NCBI GenBank assembly: GCA_017305055.1
Contig: JAFKMZ010000025.1
Location: 1-47,323 of the forward strand
Direction of reading: 5' to 3'
From: Lysobacterales bacterium
GTDB taxonomy: Bacteria; Pseudomonadota; Gammaproteobacteria; Xanthomonadales; Rhodanobacteraceae
Length of the DNA: 47,323 nucleotides
Shown here in pieces: positions 39,071 through 47,323 of the stretch. The notes beneath the pieces are model-generated. The model did not search any database, was not told the origin of the DNA, and was given only the letters and a program-made list of their open reading frames with translations. Position numbers and translations under genes: made by a program. Each line of letters starts with the position of its first letter. Position 1 is the first letter of the stretch.

Positions 39071-40441
39071 TCAGGGCTTGACGATGCTCCATCGCGTACC
39101 TTCGGTGCTGTCCTCGATGAGCACGCCGAGCGCGTGCAGCTCATCGCGCAAGGCATCGGCACGTGCGAAGTCGCGACACTCGCGGGCCTCACGCCGCTGC
39201 CGCAGGAGCGTTTCAATGTGCGTGGTGTCCACCTCGTTTTTGCCGGCCCGGAACCAGTCCTGCGGCTCCTGCCGCAACAAACCCAACGTCGCGGCGCCGG
39301 CAAGCAGCTCGGCCTTGGCAACCGCACTGCGGTCGCGGCGTGCGCGGTCAGCCAGCTCGGCCAGCTCGGCCAGTGCCTGGGGCGTGTTGAGGTCATCGCA
39401 CAACGCCGCCTCGATCCCCTGCGGTACTGGCATGTTCCGCTCCGGCACGTCGACGTCAGCCATGTCGCGCAGCACACGGTACCAGCCATCGAGGGTGGAT
39501 GTGGCCTGACGGATACCGGACTCGGACCAGTCCAGCGGTTGCCGATAGTGGCCGCTCAGCAGGCGCAGGCGCAGGGCCTCCGCCGGGTGTTGCTGCAGCA
39601 ACTCGTGCAGCACCAGCACGTTGCCAAGCGACTTCGACATCTTGCGGCCTTCGAAAGTCAGCATGCCGTTGTGCAGCCACCAGCGGGCAAACAGCTGGCC
39701 ACCGTGCGCACAGGTGGATTGCGCGATCTCGTTTTCGTGATGCGGGAACAGCAGGTCGATGCCACCGGCGTGGATGTCGATGGTCTGGCCCAGGTGGGCG
39801 GCACTCATCGCCGAGCATTCGATGTGCCACCCGGGCCGTCCGCGTCCCCAGGGGCTGTCCCAGCCCGGCAGCTCGGGTGGTGAAGGCTTCCACAGCACGA
39901 AGTCACCGGGGTCGCGCTTGTAGTCGGCAACCTCGATGCGTGAGCCGGCCAGCAGCTCTTCCGGGTCGCGTCCCGACAAGGCGCCGTATCGCGCAAACGA
40001 GGCCACGGCAAACAGCACGTGCCCCGCGCTGACATAGGCATGACCGCGCTCCAGCAGGCACCTGATCATGTCGACGATGGGCGTGATGTGCCCGGTGGCC
40101 TGCGGCTCGATGTCCGGCTCGGCCACGCCCATGGCCGCCATATCATCGTGGTAAATCTCGGTGAAGCGTCGGGTGATGGTGCCGATCGGCACGCCTTGCT
40201 GCTGGGCGGCAGCGTTGATCTTGTCGTCGATATCTGTGATGTTGCGCGCGTAGACCACCCGGGGATAGTGGCGCCGCAGCAGCTGCACCAGCACGTCGAA
40301 CACCACCGGGCCGCGGGCATTGCCGATGTGCACGTAGTTGTAGACGGTTGGCCCGCACAGGTACATCGTCACCCGGCCGGGATCGCCAGGCTCGAACGTC
40401 TCGATGCGGCGGGTCAGGCTGTTGTAGAGCGAAATCGGCAT
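39071..40441 (-). CDS. cysS: Cysteinyl-tRNA synthetase
   Basis: 456 aa, class I synthetase. HIGN at residues 38-41 ([16 protein letters not shown]), KMSKS in [12 protein letters not shown], zinc ligands Cys29 (LCGPTVYN), GWHIECSAM and [12 protein letters not shown]. Length equals E. coli CysRS (461 aa). The ATG at 40441 starts the canonical MPISLYNSL; the longer frame upstream is not family-like. Confidence 0.97.
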
Positions 40442-40607
40442 GGGTGGTCCGTGGCCGGATGGGATGGAAGGCCGGGCAGCCCAGCATCTTAACAAGGTGT
40501 AAGCCGGGTGTTGGGTCAGTGGTCGTTCTAAGCGTGTATTCAGCGTGAATTTGCTGCAATGCCCGCTAAATGCAACCAAGCGCGGCTTTGGGAACTCGGA
40601 GGTCGTC

Positions 40608-41141
40608 ATGAGCAGGCTTTGGCTTTCCACTTTGGTGCTCGCCATGGTGTCCACTGGGGTGTTTGCCCAGGACGGACGCTATGCCACGTCGGCCCCGAAC
40701 GACGAGAACGCCCACTACGGCTGGGCCGACGTGCTGCGCGCGGATCCCGTACAAGGCGTCACCCGCACCGAAGTGCCCCGGCAGGAATGCTATGACCAGC
40801 CCGTGGTACGCCAGGAAGGCGGCAACACCACGGCCGGTACGGTGTTGGGCGCGGTGGTGGGCGGCGTGCTCGGCAACACCATCGGCAAGGGCGACGGGCG
40901 CAAGGCGGCGACCGTCCTGGGCGCGGTCGCCGGCGGTGCGGTGGGCAATCGCGCAACCCAGGGTGGCACGTACGAATCCACGCAGACCCAATGCCGCACG
41001 GTGAGCTCGGTCAGCGAGCAGCGCCAGATCATCGGCTACGACGTGGAATACCGCTATCACGGGGACGTCTACGTCTCGCGCCTGAGCTACGACCCCGGCG
41101 ACCGCCTGCGCGTGCGCGTCAGCGTCACCCCGGCCAACTGA
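40608..41141 (+). CDS. Exported glycine-zipper 2TM-domain protein
   Basis: 177 aa with a signal peptide ([21 protein letters not shown]). The middle has two Gly/Ala zipper helices ([16 protein letters not shown] and [15 protein letters not shown]) of the 17-kDa surface antigen (Rick_17kDa_Anti) family. The C-terminal beta segment ([19 protein letters not shown]) fits the same family, whose role in the envelope is unclear. No lipobox Cys is present, unlike SlyB-type lipoproteins. GGAGG lies 5 nt before the ATG. It is upstream of the arginine operon but separated by the 488-bp leader region. Confidence 0.82.
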
Positions 41142-41243
41142 TTCCGGGCGGATCGATTCCGCTTGGCGGTGCCGGGTATGTGCCGTGAGTCCATCATGCG
41201 GCGTCCCGCATGCCAGCTGTTGCGTCGCAAAGGGAATGCCGGC

Positions 41244-41375
41244 ATGATGGGCGCATTGCGTGCGGAAATGCCCATGTCCACAGCCGTCTACACCGCCACC
41301 GTGCTGACCAGCGCCCGTGCCGCTTCGGGCATGACCTCGCGCGCGCGCCGACCGGGCAGACATGTCGCCGGGTAG
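41244..41375 (+). CDS. Candidate arginine leader peptide of the arginine operon
   Basis: A 43-codon frame starting at ATG 41244 or 41247 (AAGGGA at 41230-41235, 8 nt upstream), or at ATG 41274 for a 33-residue form (GGAA, 6 nt upstream). It ends SRARRPGRHVAG-stop: Arg codons CGC 41340, CGC 41346, CGA 41349 and AGA 41358, that is four Arg in the ten residues 33-42, just before the TAG at 41373. Arg is common in random GC-rich frames, so composition alone is weak; position relative to the attenuator hairpins is the main support. It is not similar to any protein I recognise. Confidence 0.55.
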   Translation: MMGALRAEMPMSTAVYTATVLTSARAASGMTSRARRPGRHVAG

Positions 41376-41432
41376 GCTGTCGCACGCGTAGTTTGTGTAT
41401 CGACGAAAAACCCGGCCCTCGTGCCGGGTTTT
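41347..41432 (+). promoter_or_regulatory. Candidate ribosome-mediated transcription attenuator (arms 1-4)
   Basis: Arm 1 GCCGACCGGGC (41347-41357, over Arg codons) pairs with arm 2 GCCGGGTAGGC (41367-41377, including the stop codon): nine pairs, two mismatches, 9-nt loop. Arm 2 core GCCGGGT (41367-41373) also pairs perfectly with arm 3 ACCCGGC (41410-41416), the 5' side of the terminator. Arm 3 alternatively pairs with arm 4 (41423-41432). A ribosome stalled at the Arg codons would block arm 1, free arm 2 and prevent termination; one reaching the stop would cover arm 2 and allow termination. Pairings are read from sequence; the mechanism is inference. Confidence 0.6.
41407..41432 (+). terminator. 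Intrinsic terminator in the argF' leader
   Basis: A perfect 10-bp stem AAAACCCGGC (41407-41416), loop CCTCGT, GCCGGGTTTT (41423-41432), followed by CTGCTTTT. It is the strongest intrinsic terminator in the window, yet lies about 200 bp upstream of argF' in the same direction. The glycine-zipper gene ends 265 bp before it, so it could also end that transcript. Confidence 0.8.
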
Positions 41433-41502
41433 CTGCTTTTGGCCGTTTCATTCCCCGAGGCGAATGCCATTCACCTGTTCAAGCCGAGACCTCCAATTTG
41501 CC

Positions 41503-41590
41503 GTCATTCCCGCGAAGAGCTTCACAGCAACGAAGCTGGTCAAGCGGGAATCGTTTTACGACCGACGCATGTCTGGTCATCCAGTGACTT
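41503..41590. repeat. CGTCATTCCCGCG-type palindromic (REP-like) element
   Basis: ATTCCCGC (41506-41513) pairs with GCGGGAAT (41544-41551), and inside it AGCTTC (41518-41523) pairs with GAAGCT (41532-41537). The flank ATCCAGTGACTT (41579-41590) resembles the usual tail of widespread xanthomonad palindromes of the form GTCATTCCCGCGAA...GCGGGAAT. Here it is separated from the stem by about 27 bp. It lies between the leader terminator and argF'. Confidence 0.6.
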
Positions 41591-41629
41591 CAGCCTTTAC
41601 GGGCCGCCACCGCTCCGGAGCACCACCCC

Positions 41630-42640
41630 ATGACCCTCCGCCATTTCATCACCACCCAGGACTGCAGCCGCGCCGAGATCGACGCCTTGCTGGCGCAGGC
41701 CGCCGGGTTCAAGCGTTCGCCCGGCGGCCGCCAGCTGGCAGGCAAGTCGATTGCCCTGCTGTTTTTCAATCCCTCCATGCGCACGCGCACCAGCTTTGAG
41801 CTCGGCGCCTACCAGTTGGGCGGGCACGCCATCGTGCTGTCGCCGGGCAAGGATGCGTGGCCCATCGAGTTCGAGGTGGGCACGGTGATGGATGGCGACA
41901 GCGAGGAGCACGTGGCCGAGGTCGCCCAGGTGCTGTCGCGCTACGTCGACCTGATCGCGGTCCGCGCGTTCCCGAAGTTCCAGGACTGGGCGGTGGATCG
42001 CGAGGACCAGGTGATCAAGGCGTTCGCCCGCTACGCCACGGTGCCGGTGATCAACATGGAAACCATCACCCATCCCTGCCAGGAGCTGGCCCACGTACTG
42101 GCCTTGCAGGAGCACCTGGGCAACGATCTGCGGCACCGAAAGTACGTGCTGACCTGGACCTGGCATCCGAAGCCGCTGAACACCGCTGTCGCCAATTCGG
42201 CCCTGCTGATCGCCACCAGGATGGGCATGGACGTGACCCTGCTGTGCCCGACGCCGGACTACGTGCTGGATGAGCGCTACATGGCGTTCGGCCGCCGGAA
42301 TGCCGAGGAAAATGGTGGCTCGCTCACGGTCAGCCATGACGTGGAGGCCAGCTATCGGGGCGCCGACGTGGTCTACGCCAAGAGCTGGGGCGCGCTGCCG
42401 TTCTTCGGCCGTTGGGACCAGGAGAAGCCGATCCGCGAGGCGCATCGGCACTTCACCGTCGACGCGCAAAAGATGGCGCTGACCAACCACGGCCTGTTCA
42501 GCCATTGCCTGCCGCTGCGGCGCAATGTGCAGGCGACCGACGCGGTCATGGACTCGCCGGCCTGCATCGCCATCGACGAGGCTGAAAACCGCCTGCACGT
42601 GCAGAAGGCGGTCATGGCATCACTGCTTGCCACGCATTGA
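41630..42640 (+). CDS. argF': N-acetyl-L-ornithine carbamoyltransferase
   Basis: 336 aa. This branch of the carbamoyltransferases uses N-acetylornithine rather than ornithine, giving N-acetylcitrulline; it is known from Xanthomonas and relatives. Carbamoyl-phosphate motif FFNPSMRTRTSFELG, THPCQELAHVLALQEH and HCLPLRRNVQATD are visible, with TWTWHPKPLNTAVANSA, typical of the N-acetyl type. The Lys in TVDAQKMALTNHGLF likely corresponds to the carboxylated lysine described in the Xanthomonas enzyme. GGAG lies 9 nt before the ATG. It is the first structural gene of the arginine operon, behind the candidate attenuator. Confidence 0.95.
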   Translation: MTLRHFITTQDCSRAEIDALLAQAAGFKRSPGGRQLAGKSIALLFFNPSMRTRTSFELGAYQLGGHAIVLSPGKDAWPIEFEVGTVMDGDSEEHVAEVAQVLSRYVDLIAVRAFPKFQDWAVDREDQVIKAFARYATVPVINMETITHPCQELAHVLALQEHLGNDLRHRKYVLTWTWHPKPLNTAVANSALLIATRMGMDVTLLCPTPDYVLDERYMAFGRRNAEENGGSLTVSHDVEASYRGADVVYAKSWGALPFFGRWDQEKPIREAHRHFTVDAQKMALTNHGLFSHCLPLRRNVQATDAVMDSPACIAIDEAENRLHVQKAVMASLLATH

Positions 42641-42669
42641 CCCAGGCGATTCGACGCAGGAGACGGCGC

Positions 42670-43296
42670 ATGTACATGCCCAAAGAGTTCAGGGAAACCC
42701 GCATCGAAGTCCTGCAGGATCTGATGCGCGCCAGCCCGCTGGCGACCGTGGTCACGCATGGTGTCGGCGGATTTGCCGCCAACCACCTGCCATTCGAGGT
42801 GATCGATGCGACCACGCTGCATACGCATGTGGCGCGTGGCAACGAGCTGGTGCAGATGGACGGGGCCGAGGCGCTGCTGGTGTTCCGGGGGCCGGACGGC
42901 TATATCAGCCCGAGCTGGTATCCGACCGCACATGAGACCGGGCGCGAGGTACCGACCTGGGACTACGCCGTGGTGCACGTGCACGGCCACCTGCAGGTCA
43001 TCGATGACCCGGTCTGGCTGCGGCGCCTGCTGGCCAGGCTGGTCAAGCGGCATGAGGCGAACCTGTCGCATCCGTGGCGCATGGGCGATGCGCCGGCTGA
43101 CCACATCGAGGAATCGATCAAGGCCATCGTCGGCGTGGCGGTCACGGTCGATCGTATCGAGGGCAAGTTCAAGCTCAGCCAGAACCATCCCGAGCGCAAC
43201 CAGGCCGGTGTGCTCACAGGTCTGCGTGCGCGGCATGCGGACGGCGATGTGGCATTGGCCGATTTCATGGTCCACTACCGGGATACGAAGGCGTGA
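42670..43296 (+). CDS. PaiB-family FMN-binding protein
   Basis: 208 aa. The family start MYMPKEF and core motifs are present (LATVVTHGVGGFAANHLPFE, HVARGNELVQMDG, GPDGYISPSWYP, VPTWDYAVVHVHGH, KLSQNHPERNQAGV). The fold is an FMN-binding split barrel. Bacillus PaiB is called a negative transcriptional regulator, but the biochemical role of such proteins is unclear. It is 29 bp after argF' and overlaps the osmC-like start, so it is transcribed with the arginine genes. ATG 42670 follows GGAG at suitable spacing. Confidence 0.88.
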   Translation: MYMPKEFRETRIEVLQDLMRASPLATVVTHGVGGFAANHLPFEVIDATTLHTHVARGNELVQMDGAEALLVFRGPDGYISPSWYPTAHETGREVPTWDYAVVHVHGHLQVIDDPVWLRRLLARLVKRHEANLSHPWRMGDAPADHIEESIKAIVGVAVTVDRIEGKFKLSQNHPERNQAGVLTGLRARHADGDVALADFMVHYRDTKA

Positions 43297-43772
43297 GCGC
43301 CGAGGCGCGCCACCGCTACCGTGTCGATGTGGAGTGGACCGGCAACCTTGGCTCCGGCACCAAGGACTACCGCAGCTATCGGCGCGAGCACACGATCCGG
43401 GTGGCCGGCAAGCCCGTGCTGGCCGCCTCGTCTGATCGGGCCTTCCATGGCGATCCGGCGCGGCACAACCCGGAAGACCTGCTGCTGGCAGCGTTGTCGA
43501 GCTGCCACATGCTGTCGTACCTGCACATGGCGATGCTCGCCGGTGTGGTCGTGACCGCCTACGTGGATGCCGCCGAAGGCGTGATGGAGACTGCCGGCAA
43601 CGGCGGGCGCTTCGTCGAGGTCGTGCTGCACCCGGTGGTGACGATCAGCGCGGCCAGCGATCCAGTCAGGGCCGAAGCCGCACACGAGGCCGCGCACCAT
43701 GCCTGCTTTATTGCCAACTCGGTGAATTTTCCCGTGCGCTGCGAACCCCGCACCGTGATCGCCGCCATCTGA
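43293..43772 (+). CDS. OsmC-family thiol peroxidase-like protein
   Basis: 159 aa starting with GTG that overlaps the previous stop (GTGA). The two conserved cysteines of OsmC/Ohr proteins are seen in [17 protein letters not shown] and [14 protein letters not shown], together with the substrate-pocket residues around NPEDLLLAA. OsmC/Ohr enzymes reduce organic hydroperoxides with thiols. Its presence between argF' and argG in one operon is unusual; a protective role for operon products or chance co-option are both possible. Confidence 0.9.
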
Positions 43773-43801: not shown

Positions 43802-44995
43802 ATGTCCAAAGACATCGTCCTCGCCTTTTCCGGCGGCCTCGACACCAGTTTCTGCGTGCCCTACCTGCGCGAGCGCGGCTGGGCGGTGCACACCGTGTTT
43901 GCCGACACCGGCGGTGTCGACGCCGAGGAAAGGGCGTTCATCGAACAGCGCGCCGCCGAGCTCGGCGTGGCCAGCCACGTCACCGTCGACGGTGGTCCGG
44001 CGCTGTGGAGCGGCTTCGTCAAGCCCTTCGTATGGGCCGGCGAGGGCTACCAGGGACAATATCCGCTGCTGGTCTCCGACCGCTATCTCATCGTCGATGC
44101 CGCGCTGGCGCGCGCGGCCGAACTCGGTACGCGTGCGGTGGCCCACGGCTGCACCGGCATGGGCAACGACCAGGTGCGCTTCGACCTGGCGGTGAAGGCC
44201 CAGGGCAGCTACGACATCGTCGCGCCGATCCGCGAGATCCAGAAGGAACACACCGAGGTGCGCGCCTACGAGCAGCAGTACCTCGAGGCCCGTGGCTTTG
44301 GCGTGCGCAGCAGGCAGCAGGCCTACACGATCAACGAGAACCTGCTCGGCATCACCATGTCCGGCGGCGAGATCGACCGCTGGCAGGCACCTGGCGCCGG
44401 TGCCATCGGCTGGTGCAAGTCGCGTGCGGAATGGCCGTCCACGCCGCTGCACGTGAGGCTGCGCTTCGAACACGGCGAGGCGGTGACGCTGGATGGAGAG
44501 CGCCTGTCCGGCCACGTGTTGCTGGCGCGGCTCAATGGTCTGTTCGCGCCGTACGGCGTCGGTCGCGGGCTGTATACCGGCGACACCACGATCGGGCTCA
44601 AGGGCCGCATCATCTATGAGGCGCCGGGGTTGACGGCGCTGCTGGCCGCGCATCGCGCGCTGGAAGAGGCGGTGCTCACCAAGCAGCAGAACCGCTTCAA
44701 GCCCGAGGTCGCGCGCAAGTGGGTGGAGCTGGTGTACGAGGGCTTCTTCCACGATCCGCTGAAAAGCGATCTCGAGGCCTACCTCGCCTCGAGCCAGGCT
44801 GTGGTGAGCGGTGAGGTCACGCTGGAGAGCAACGGCGGCAGCGTCGGCGCCGTGGCGGTGGCGTCGCCGCACATCCTGGCGGCGCAGGGGGCGACCTACG
44901 CGCAGGCGGCAGATTGGGGCGTGGCCGAGGCCGAGGGTTTCATCAAGCTGTTCGGCATGAGCAGCTCGCTGTGGGCCGAGGTGAATCGCTCGTGA
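43802..44995 (+). CDS. argG: Argininosuccinate synthase
   Basis: 397 aa. ATP-binding PP-loop [16 protein letters not shown], substrate-binding [16 protein letters not shown]-like segment ([15 protein letters not shown]), [15 protein letters not shown] and [16 protein letters not shown]. It joins citrulline and aspartate. In the acetylated pathway citrulline arrives after deacetylation of N-acetylcitrulline by the next gene product. Its stop overlaps the GTG start of argE'. Confidence 0.95.
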
Positions 44996-46140
44996 GCCGG
45001 GAGTCGGGAATCCCGCAGGGGGACTTCGTCGGGAATCGGGAATCGGATCTGCTCGCGGCCACGCTGGTGCACCTGCGTGCCCTCGTCGGCTTCGACACGC
45101 GCAATCCGCCGCGGGCGATCGACACGGGCGGGATCTTCGATTACCTGAGCGCCCAGCTCCCGGGGTTCACGCTGCGCGTGACGGATCACGGCACCGGGTC
45201 GGTGGCCCTGCACGCTGTACGCGGCACGCCGCGCCTGCTGTTCAACGTGCATGTGGACACCGTGCCCGATTCGCCCGCATGGACGGCCGATCCGCACACG
45301 CTGCGCCTCGCCGGTGATCGCGCGATCGGCCTCGGTGCCTGCGACATCAAGGGCGCGGCCGCGGCGCTGCTGGCGGTCGCCGATGCCACGGACGGTGACA
45401 TGGCCCTGCTGTTCTCCAGCGACGAGGAAGGCAGCGACCCGCGCTGCATCGCGAACTTCCTGCGCGGGGAGCACGCCTATCGGGCGGTGATCGTCGCCGA
45501 GCCGACGCAGGCACGCGCGGTGCTGGCGCACCGGGGCATCCTCTCGGTGCGCATGGACTTTGCGGGGCGCGCCGGACATGCCTCCGCCGAGCAGGGCGCC
45601 GCGGACAGCGCGCTGCACCAGGCGGTGCGCTGGGGCGATGCGGCGTTGGACTTCGTCGCCGCGCACGCGCAGGACCGTTTTGGCGAGCTGCAGGGATGGC
45701 GCTTCAACATCGGCGTCGTCCAGGGCGGGATCAAGGCCAACATGATTGCGCCCAGCGTCGAGTTGCGCTTCGGCTGTCGACCCTTGCCCAACCTGGACAC
45801 GGACTGGCTGCTGGAGCGGTTGCGCACCCTGCGCGAGCCGCTGCCGAGCGCCTTCGCCACCACGTTCCGCGGCCCGGCCTTGCCGGCCGGGGCCGCCGCG
45901 CAGGCGGAACAACGCCGCGAGCTGGCCCGGCAACTCGCGGTCGGGCTGGCGCTGCCGCCGGGGCCGGCGGTGGACTTCTGGACCGAGGCGGCGCTGTTCT
46001 CGGCTGCCGGCCTCACGGCCCTGGTGTACGGGCCTGGCGACATCGCACAGGCCCACAGCGCCGACGAGTGGGTGGCGCTGGAGGAACTCCGGCAATACGC
46101 AACCAGCATTCATCGGATCGTAGAACATGGCCAGGCGTGA
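44992..46140 (+). CDS. argE': Acetylornithine/N-acetylcitrulline deacetylase (M20 family)
   Basis: 382 aa with GTG start overlapping argG's stop. M20 zinc motifs: [49 protein letters not shown] and [10 protein letters not shown]. In xanthomonads the equivalent enzyme deacetylates N-acetylcitrulline. Residues 3-18 are encoded by GGGAATC-type heptamers (see repeat) and precede the normal start of the fold at [15 protein letters not shown], so the N-terminus looks extended. No alternative ATG or GTG is present after the repeat and before the fold. Confidence 0.92.
44999..45044 (+). repeat. GGGAATC heptamer repeats inside the start of argE'
   Basis: Four heptamers: GGGAGTC (44999), GGGAATC (45006), GGGAATC (45031) and GGGAATC (45038), with an 18-bp interruption. 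Strings of GGGAATC are a familiar intergenic repeat in xanthomonads. Here they lie in frame within the coding region right after the start. Confidence 0.7.
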
Positions 46141-46147
46141 GCAGAAC

Positions 46148-47323
46148 ATGGAACAGCTGACAAATCCGGACCACGTGGACACCGGCACATCTGCAACGAC
46201 GGCGCCGGATGTGCCGTTCGTCGAGGCGGGGCATCCGAGCACCCGCAGCACCATCGTGCGCCTGCTCTCGGCCATGGGTAGCGCCAAGGAAATCGACCAG
46301 TACCTGAAGCGCTTCTCGCAGCTCGACGCCAAGCGCTTCGCCCTGGTCAAGGTGGGTGGCGCGGTGCTGCGCGACGACCTGCCGGCCCTGGTCTCCTCAC
46401 TGACCTTCCTGCAGCAGGTCGGGCTGACGCCGATCGTGCTGCACGGCGCGGGGCCGCAGCTGGACGAGGAACTGGCGGCGGCCGGCATCGAGAAGCAGAC
46501 GGTCGGCGGCCTGCGCGTGACCTCGCCGAGAGCCCTGGCCATCGTCCGCCGTGTGTTCCAGAAGCAGAACCTGCGCCTGGTCGAAGCCCTGCAGTGCACG
46601 GGCACGCGTGCCACATCCGTGCCTTCCGGCGTGTTCACCGCCAGCCAGCTCGACGCCGCCACCTACGGCCTGGTCGGCAAGGTGGACTCGATCAACCTGG
46701 CGGCTGTCGAGACCAGCCTGCGCGCGGGCTCGATCCCGGTGATCGCCAGCCTCGGCGAGACCGAATCCGGGCAGATCCTCAACATCAACGCCGACTTCGC
46801 GGCCAACGAGCTGGTGCGCGCCCTGCAGCCGTACAAGATCGTCTTCCTCACCGGCACTGGCGGCCTGCTGGACGGCGACGGCAAGGTGATCGATTCGATC
46901 AACCTGAGCACGGAGTACGAGGCGCTGCTGGCCCAGCCCTGGCTCGGCGGCGGCATGCGCCTGAAGATCGAGCAGATCGCGCAGCTGCTGGCGGACCTGC
47001 CGCTGTCCTCGTCGGTGTCGATCACCCGGCCCTCCGAGCTGGCCAAGGAGCTGTTCACGCACAAGGGCTCGGGCACCCTGGTGCGCCGCGGCGAGCGCGT
47101 GCTGCGCTTCGATTCGTGGGCAGGTGTCGACCAGCCGCGCCTGCGCGGCCTGATCGAGTCGAGCTTCGGACGTCGGCTCGCCGCGGACTATTTCATGCGC
47201 ACGCAGCCGTGCTGCGTGTACGTGAGCGAGAACTACCGCGCGGCGATGGTGCTCACCGACGAGGGCGGCCTCACCTACCTGGACAAGTTCGCGGTGCTGG
47301 ACGATGCGCAGGGAGAGGGCCTG
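46148..47323 (+). CDS. argB: N-acetylglutamate kinase with C-terminal N-acetyltransferase domain (partial)
   Basis: 392 codons, open at the window end. Residues 1-290 are an amino-acid kinase ([71 protein letters not shown]). From about residue 295 onward a GNAT-type domain starts ([47 protein letters not shown]). This NAGS-kinase fusion is known from Xanthomonas, where it makes and phosphorylates N-acetylglutamate and is feedback-controlled by arginine. About 50 residues should be missing. An alternative in-frame ATG at 46127 overlaps argE'. Confidence 0.93.

Follow-up and report, generated by a model that had tools for sequence, protein, structure and literature searches.

How arginine synthesis is regulated in bacteria in which no ArgR of the E. 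coli type was found is a question raised by the DNA upstream of argF' in a Lysobacterales bacterium (assembly GCA_017305055.1, contig JAFKMZ010000025.1, positions 1 to 47,323, forward strand; we call this whole stretch of 47,323 nt the window). That the genes downstream make arginine, as an initial annotation had proposed, is borne out by NCBIfam matches, which identify argF' itself, argG, argE and an argB-type kinase (Table 1). No E. coli-type ArgR (PF01316) was found in the window's genome, and across the order proteins of this E. coli type exceeded the cut-off in five of 397 genomes, all of them in family f12; the window's own family contained one sub-threshold match, of 21.2 bits, in genome G031. 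In an f12 genome, G243, about 1.2 kb separates ArgR from the gene for the carbamoyltransferase (locus L340), where the leader described below was not seen. Within the arginine operon of the window, between argF' and argG (42670-43772), stand genes for an FMN-binding protein and an OsmC-like protein, and six consecutive in-frame Arg codons (42652-42669) come directly before the FMN-binding gene; because this run overlaps the AGGAGA ribosome site of that gene, it is probably a coincidence.

Upstream of argF' there is a conserved arginine leader element made up of a promoter, a leader peptide gene of 33 codons, an antiterminator strand at its stop codon and an intrinsic terminator, and we consider it very probable that this element controls the arginine operon by ribosome-mediated transcription attenuation, sensing arginyl-tRNA(ICG). 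An attenuator had been proposed here from the outset, and its overall design is supported by the retention of the Arg codons, the covariation of pairings 2:3 and 3:4 and the arginine genes downstream, whereas the start and ribosome site had been misplaced and the 1:2 pairing is the weakest part. The frame does end in SRARRPGRHVAG-stop, with TAG at 41373-41375. A start at 41244, however, would lie inside the -10 box CATGAT (41243-41248), and the stretch that had been read as a strong ribosome site aligns instead with the promoter of relatives; the start conserved among those relatives is ATG 41274 (MSTAVYTATVLTSAR...), with an in-frame ATG at 41268 and a TTG at 41256 as other possible starts.

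The promoter takes the form TTGC[AG][TC], 17 nt, CAT[GC]AT in the relatives, in which a start ATGTC is seen downstream, and the spacer in the window is likewise 17 nt. An arrangement of the kind TTGnnn-N16-18-nAnnnT was present upstream of 209 of 217 leaders as against 20 of 217 single shuffles, and its spacer is exactly 17 nt in 186 of the 209; a stricter consensus scan of the window returned no promoter. In 106 of the 209 leaders the first in-frame ATG, GTG or TTG is situated 4-12 nt past the -10 box (24-28 nt in 80), so that many leader messages may be leaderless; the window falls among these 106 by virtue of a TTG, its conserved ATG being 25 nt past the box. Many of the relatives L009-L037 have a strongly conserved, palindrome-like sequence between the two promoter boxes, and an inverted repeat in the window (41186-41199 / 41242-41255) overlaps the -10 box; such a structure is possibly the operator of some regulator.

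Table 1. Features of the argF' leader and its operon, in positions of the window
Feature	Position	Strand	Basis or variation
-35 element TTGCGT	41220..41225	+	homology in relatives and promoter-shape count
-10 element CATGAT	41243..41248	+	CATGAT/CATCAT at homologous place in relatives
Leader peptide gene MSTAVYTATVLTSARAASGMTSRARRPGRHVAG, 33 codons and stop	41274..41375	+	start homologous in relatives; core selected as amino acids
Conserved peptide core ASGMTSRARRP (relatives: AxGMTSRARR)	41322..41354	+	finder fixes M, T, S and two Arg; A(-3), G(-1), A4 and middle Arg free
Candidate 1:2 hairpin, hides region 2 when ribosome absent	41338..41388	+	fold of window; weak over set
Control Arg codon 1, CGC	41340..41342	+	CGT 85, CGC 45, CGA 1 of 131
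Control Arg codon 2, CGC	41346..41348	+	CGC 99, CGT 31, CAC 1 of 131
Control Arg codon 3, CGA (rare)	41349..41351	+	CGA 129/131
Region 2, antiterminator 5' strand GCCGGGT, overlaps stop codon	41367..41373	+	complementarity and covariation
Region 3, terminator 5' arm AAAACCCGGC	41407..41416	+	hairpin and covariation
Region 4, terminator 3' arm GCCGGGTTTT, then T-rich tail	41423..41432	+	hairpin and covariation
argF', N-acetylornithine carbamoyltransferase	41630..42640	+	NCBIfam NF003384, E 3.2e-180
argG, argininosuccinate synthase	43802..44995	+	NF003385, E 1.7e-224
argE, acetylornithine deacetylase	44989..46140	+	NF006439, E 5.1e-171; match is residues 19-379 of translated stretch, start position provisional
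argB-type acetylglutamate kinase, continues past window end	46127..47323	+	NF003386, E 4.2e-190

The leader was present before argF' in all of the best 30 argF' matches of the family (protein search, window included), from which a covariance model of the element was built. This model matched 218 of the 233 genomes of the family and all 26 of its 26 genera; thirteen of the 15 misses are genomes without a strong argF' match, another (G177) has argF' 66 nt from the start of its contig, and G182 is the one remaining. Across the order the model matched 315 of 397 genomes, and among 30 matches inspected outside the family, argF' is preceded by the leader frame, at 81-374 nt, in every one of the 28 from families f2, f3 and f4; the two matches in f8 and f10 lay away from argF' and were dropped as chance. 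None of the five ArgR-bearing f12 genomes is among the matches, and the genomes sampled from f12, the only family with ArgR above the cut-off, lack the leader. Comparable leaders are found in Xanthomonas and Stenotrophomonas, and f2 includes leader peptides identical to theirs.

A DNA pattern for the core was found in at least 119 stretches of GTDB species genomes, 113 of which have argF' 73-388 nt downstream, the other six lying at the edge of a fetched stretch that ends too early. Among 352 genomes of the class, the pattern occurred in five, all of this order, and its exact form was absent from all 347 sampled class genomes outside the order. In L225, a 'Deltaproteobacteria' MAG, the pattern falls inside a long frame at the stretch edge, probably by chance, and a phage search with the leader DNA returned no match. 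Some genomes gave a second match to the model, but the 12 inspected, of 20 such matches, resemble terminators of other genes, and these matches thus provide no evidence that the element controls other genes. After deduplication there were 221 argF' upstream regions, 219 of them with the motif; the two that lack it, L214 with a poly-Arg frame and L213, in which neither motif nor poly-Arg frame was seen, stay in the counts of 221 and 133.

The RNA of these leaders can pair in alternative ways, and pairings 2:3 and 3:4 are conserved. As initially proposed, GCCGGGT (41367-41373) is perfectly complementary to ACCCGGC (41410-41416), which lies in the 5' arm of a 10-bp intrinsic terminator with a T-rich tail, and a hairpin finder located the terminator in 219 of 219 leaders. 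Region 2 lies on the stop codon or no more than 3 nt from it in 207 of 219, begins 21 nt after the first base of CGA in 180, and forms a duplex of 7-8 bp in 193 (at most 5 bp in 22). This duplex outdoes all 50 shuffles of its own region in just 72 of 219 leaders. Single-shuffle tests of it are weak owing to the GC-richness of the sequence, and the stronger evidence is its fixed position together with covariation.

For the covariation statistics, 60 of the 219 leaders were chosen for diversity. The 2:3 helix is paired in 93.3% of cells, compared with 90.8 in shuffles and at most 52.8% when slid, and it holds 25 double-change cells against 9.1 in shuffles, with 0 of 500 as high and a score that is also unusual; the numbers of pairs with double changes (2 vs 1.1) and of pair types (6 vs 5.5) were not unusual against shuffles. 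For the 3:4 helix the corresponding values are 100% of cells paired (93.5 in shuffles, at most 56.2% when slid) and 48 double-change cells against 18.8. At an inner position, where the reading patterns admit only C/T and A/G, the triple formed by region 2, the 5' arm and the 3' arm reads C-G-C in 131 leaders, T-A-T in 65, T-G-C in 11, C-A-T in 3 and C-G-T in 1, with 8 unread, and at an outer position region 2 pairs with the 5' arm in 193 (T-A 164, T-G 27, C-G 2), with 9 mismatches and 17 unread. Changes on the tree numbered 10, 10 and 11 for region 2, the 5' arm and the 3' arm, respectively: the two arms changed jointly on 10 branches, and region 2 and the 5' arm, with 10 changes each, coincided on just 2 (0.24 expected). 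The remaining hairpin of the initial proposal, between the Arg codons and the stop region, folds in the window when no ribosome is present, but over the 219 leaders it is no stabler than shuffled sequence (mean z -0.30).

The position of the ribosome decides which of the two conserved structures forms in the folds. With a ribosome stalled at CGA, such that the RNA is free from 13 nt after the codon's first base (an assumed distance) up to the terminator loop, the antiterminator is in the minimum-energy fold of 217 of 219 leaders; placing the ribosome on the stop codon instead gives the terminator in all 219. When the complete terminator is in the transcript, it is favoured over the antiterminator at equilibrium in 196 of the 219 leaders despite the stall, so the switch must be kinetic and decided during transcription. 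The stop lies at +27 from CGA in 186 of 219 leaders, with distances of 6 to 30 nt overall. In ten leaders it follows CGA by less than 18 nt, and a terminating ribosome would leave region 2 uncovered, such that the model misfits them; region 2 is still 16-23 nt from CGA in these ten, and its keeping this distance when the stop shifts suggests that its place is set by the stall site.

From this arrangement we infer that the operon would be controlled as follows. Transcription would start just past the -10 box, and a ribosome would translate the 33 codons of the leader close behind RNA polymerase. If arginyl-tRNA(ICG) is scarce, the ribosome would halt at the Arg codons, chiefly at the rare CGA, leaving region 2 free to pair with region 3, and the polymerase would continue into argF'-argG-argE-argB. 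When arginine is ample, the ribosome would reach the stop codon and cover region 2, the 3:4 terminator would form, and transcription would end prematurely.

The codons at which such stalling is predicted are both conserved as Arg and restricted in kind. All 219 leaders were located by the amino-acid pattern MTS[RK]xxR, which sets M, T, S and two Arg in advance. For 88 of them the retrieval itself relied on a DNA pattern with TCG, CG, CGA and the Gly bases preset, and codon usage and selection were therefore recalculated on the 131 leaders obtained in other ways. The middle Arg, left free by the finder, is Arg in 130 of these 131, as conservation of the Arg codons would have it, and 392 of their 393 control codons specify Arg (two of the three positions being fixed by the finder as R or R/K): 145 are CGC, 130 CGA and 117 CGT, with one CAC. 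CGG or AGR is found at 0 of the 393, compared with 10.4% (CGG) and 3.3% (AGR) of the Arg codons in argF'. Mapped on the argF' protein tree, control codon 1 underwent 22 changes and control codon 2 underwent 25, none of them to CGG or AGR; on the same tree, neighbouring codons went from GGC to GGG 12 times and from ACC to ACG 12 times, and a non-conserved Arg five codons before the Met uses CGG in 24 of 219 leaders. The restriction of third positions to pyrimidines could be partly due to RNA pairing, which was judged insufficient as the sole cause, with the bases unpaired in 72 and 55 of 219 leaders. As to the last Arg codon, the full set agrees with the 131 leaders (CGA in 217 of 219); in argF' at these loci, by comparison, 41 of 2442 Arg codons (1.68%) are CGA.

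The window's genome (97% complete) contains tRNA-Arg genes with anticodons ACG, CCG, CCT and TCT, one each (41 tRNA matches, 40 of them typed), and no tRNA-Arg with anticodon TCG was found among these matches. Because the control codons are CGU, CGC and CGA and no UCG tRNA was found, all of them would be read by a single tRNA, tRNA-Arg(ICG), whose inosine pairs worst with CGA. The codon after CGA is CCG in 207 of 219 leaders (the DNA pattern fixes CC in 88 of these), and CGA-CCG is an inhibitory codon pair in yeast; since CCG is the commonest Pro codon in argF' anyway (70.7%), the pair is only suggestive. Three Arg codons are fewer than in some amino-acid leaders.

The core AxGMTSRARR is selected as amino acids, and the tail behind it is nearly neutral. 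Among the 131 leaders, the core positions not constrained by the finder hold Ala(-3) in 131, Gly(-1) in 130, Ala4 in 131 and the middle Arg in 130, and codons vary within the core: the Ala(-3) codon is GCC in 70, GCT in 37, GCG in 19 and GCA in 5, and the Thr codon ACG in 61, ACC in 47, ACT in 19 and ACA in 4. Change in the free core is almost purely synonymous (pN/pS 0.013), as in a translated frame; the AAG triplet scores 0.091, the tail 0.938 and the pre-core stretch 0.763. In all 219 leaders AAG scores 0.126, TSRARR 0.003, the tail 0.98 and the pre-core stretch 0.96; the recomputation upholds the result, with a pre-core stretch that is somewhat less neutral (0.76 vs 0.96). A selection figure for argF' codons 21-150 presupposed a gap-free alignment and does not serve as a control here. 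By these figures, it is the residues up to about nine positions from the peptidyl-transferase centre, when CGA occupies the A site, that are under selection for their identity. Neither Pfam nor NCBIfam, searched at E up to 1, holds a family for the leader peptide (in Pfam, for either form of the window's peptide).

Such conservation of the peptide goes beyond what a plain tRNA-charging attenuator predicts, and selection is strongest on amino acids for which a pure charging model has no use. In the exit tunnel, AxGMTSRA would probably slow peptide-bond formation or decoding at the Arg codons and so sharpen the response, although our confidence in this tunnel effect is lower than in the attenuator. 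Conceivable, if a little short of an even call, is the fuller picture of a hybrid sensor in which a nascent arrest peptide (AxGMTSRAR) is combined with the hardest codon, CGA, of tRNA-Arg(ICG), the tunnel-slowed step being tuned so that a slight fall in one charged tRNA switches the whole pathway, and in which this sensor evolved from a plain poly-Arg attenuator after the loss of ArgR.

Families without the GMTS motif bear on this history. Upstream of argF' in nine genomes of other families, read by eye, five loci have Arg-rich frames (L334 in f5, L342 in f7, L338 and L337 in f8, L335 in f10): the frames are ELRRRRT, NPRRRR, RRARRTRRP, EQRREPRRT and LLRRRSRRP, each followed by an intrinsic terminator and none containing GMTS; poly-Arg frames of this kind, different from the leader frame, were seen in G239 and G251. 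Region 2 has a 7-bp match in f5 and f7; in f8 the match contains a C-A mismatch, and f10 shows no clear one; no poly-Arg frame was seen by eye before argF' in G237 (f6), G272 and G241 (f10) or G243 (f12). These frames indicate that Arg codons are the common element, and GMTS, judging from these few genomes, would be a later refinement of a poly-Arg attenuator. At L338 (G239) the leader stretch occurs twice in tandem around an N, possibly as an assembly artefact.

Selection for AxGMTSRARR as a peptide near the stall site, and a distance from CGA to the stop that is fixed in most leaders, would also suit a ligand-sensing arrest peptide, for which TnaC and the fungal arginine attenuator peptide are models: free arginine rather than tRNA charging, acting through the nascent GMTSRARR chain, would halt the ribosome on the stop codon or close to it, such that region 2 is covered and the terminator forms at high arginine. 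We regard this as improbable, because the residues from the core to the stop are nearly neutral (pN/pS 0.94) and the stop distance ranges from 6 to 30 nt, because an arrest of this kind would not lead one to expect selection for CGU/CGC/CGA and for the rare CGA, and because poly-Arg frames occur without the motif in related families.

Still less probable is a product acting in trans, in the way that peTrpL does, whereby the terminated small RNA or the free peptide works elsewhere with little control of argF' in cis. The core peptide is indeed under strong selection, and an element with its own promoter and terminator would yield a discrete short transcript; however, the motif stands before argF' in 113 of the at least 119 stretches that carry it, with the other six ending too early, the tail drifts almost freely, and a second strand that matches and covaries with the terminator arm would be needless in a stand-alone RNA. 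That the clear promoter and terminator form a merely constitutive unit, with partial read-through, no amino-acid response and an incidental small frame, is the least credible reading of all, given core changes that are nearly all synonymous, the selection on codons and the antiterminator covariation.

The attenuator that we favour has relatives in design. We know of no leader-peptide attenuator of arginine biosynthetic operons. Ribosome-mediated attenuators govern the ilv and leu operons of enteric bacteria, and the trp, his, thr and phe operons are listed as controlled in the same manner in one source (PMC1262725). Like the trp/his type, the argF' leader encodes a short frame that contains codons for the pathway's product, offers a choice between antiterminator and terminator, and stands before a biosynthetic operon; it differs in being specific to arginine, in its few control codons and conserved peptide core, in the rare codon of one isoacceptor fixed in last place, and in its weak 1:2 hairpin. 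The leader of speF, SpeFL or ORF34, is likewise a conserved short peptide with consecutive Arg codons, which sense arginine supply; it controls ornithine decarboxylase by way of Rho, RNase G and the ribosome site, and rare and frequent Arg codons worked alike (PMC6386406). Its core, HIRRT, is different, its control does not run through an intrinsic terminator of an arginine operon, and its model (DUF2618, PF10940) did not match the window's leader peptide in Pfam at E up to 1.

Searched against Rfam, positions 40000-42700 gave no family at threshold, the one sub-threshold match being rnk_pseudo at 22.9 bits (gathering 55). T-boxes bind uncharged tRNA directly; they share control of arginine genes at the RNA level with the argF' leader and differ from it in this mode of sensing. 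Such arginine T-boxes exert RNA-level control of arginine genes in other species (PMC1262725). The carA leader of Pseudomonas resembles that of argF' in that an intrinsic terminator precedes a biosynthetic gene, here one other than argF' that serves both arginine and pyrimidine synthesis; the paper describes pyrimidine attenuation plus ArgR there, with a leader peptide reported for P. aeruginosa and no leader frame found for carA of P. syringae DC3000 (PMC4997734). Among the matches listed in a literature search of open-licence papers, in the text available, no arginine attenuator of this group and no mention of its peptide appeared, and the words arginine and argF are absent from the main text of a genome-wide attenuator survey (PMC2965389).

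If the attenuator reading is true, arginine joins the amino acids whose biosynthetic operons are under leader-peptide attenuators, arginine regulation without an E. coli-type ArgR is explained for families of an order that includes Xanthomonas and Stenotrophomonas, and the fixed CGA is a natural case of a rare codon chosen for regulation. With more than 200 natural leaders, constraints on amino acids, codons and RNA can be separated residue by residue, which opens to direct test the standing question of whether the sensitivity of classical attenuators, too, is set by way of the nascent chain. The fungal arginine attenuator peptide, an arginine-responsive short upstream peptide that arrests at the stop codon, offers a likeness by description only: both are short upstream peptides tied to arginine, the fungal one in eukaryotic translation control.

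Between the terminator and argF' in the window, at 41501-41551, lies a dispersed repeat of about 50 bases that contains a hairpin; six further copies, with 80-92% identity, are present in the same genome.
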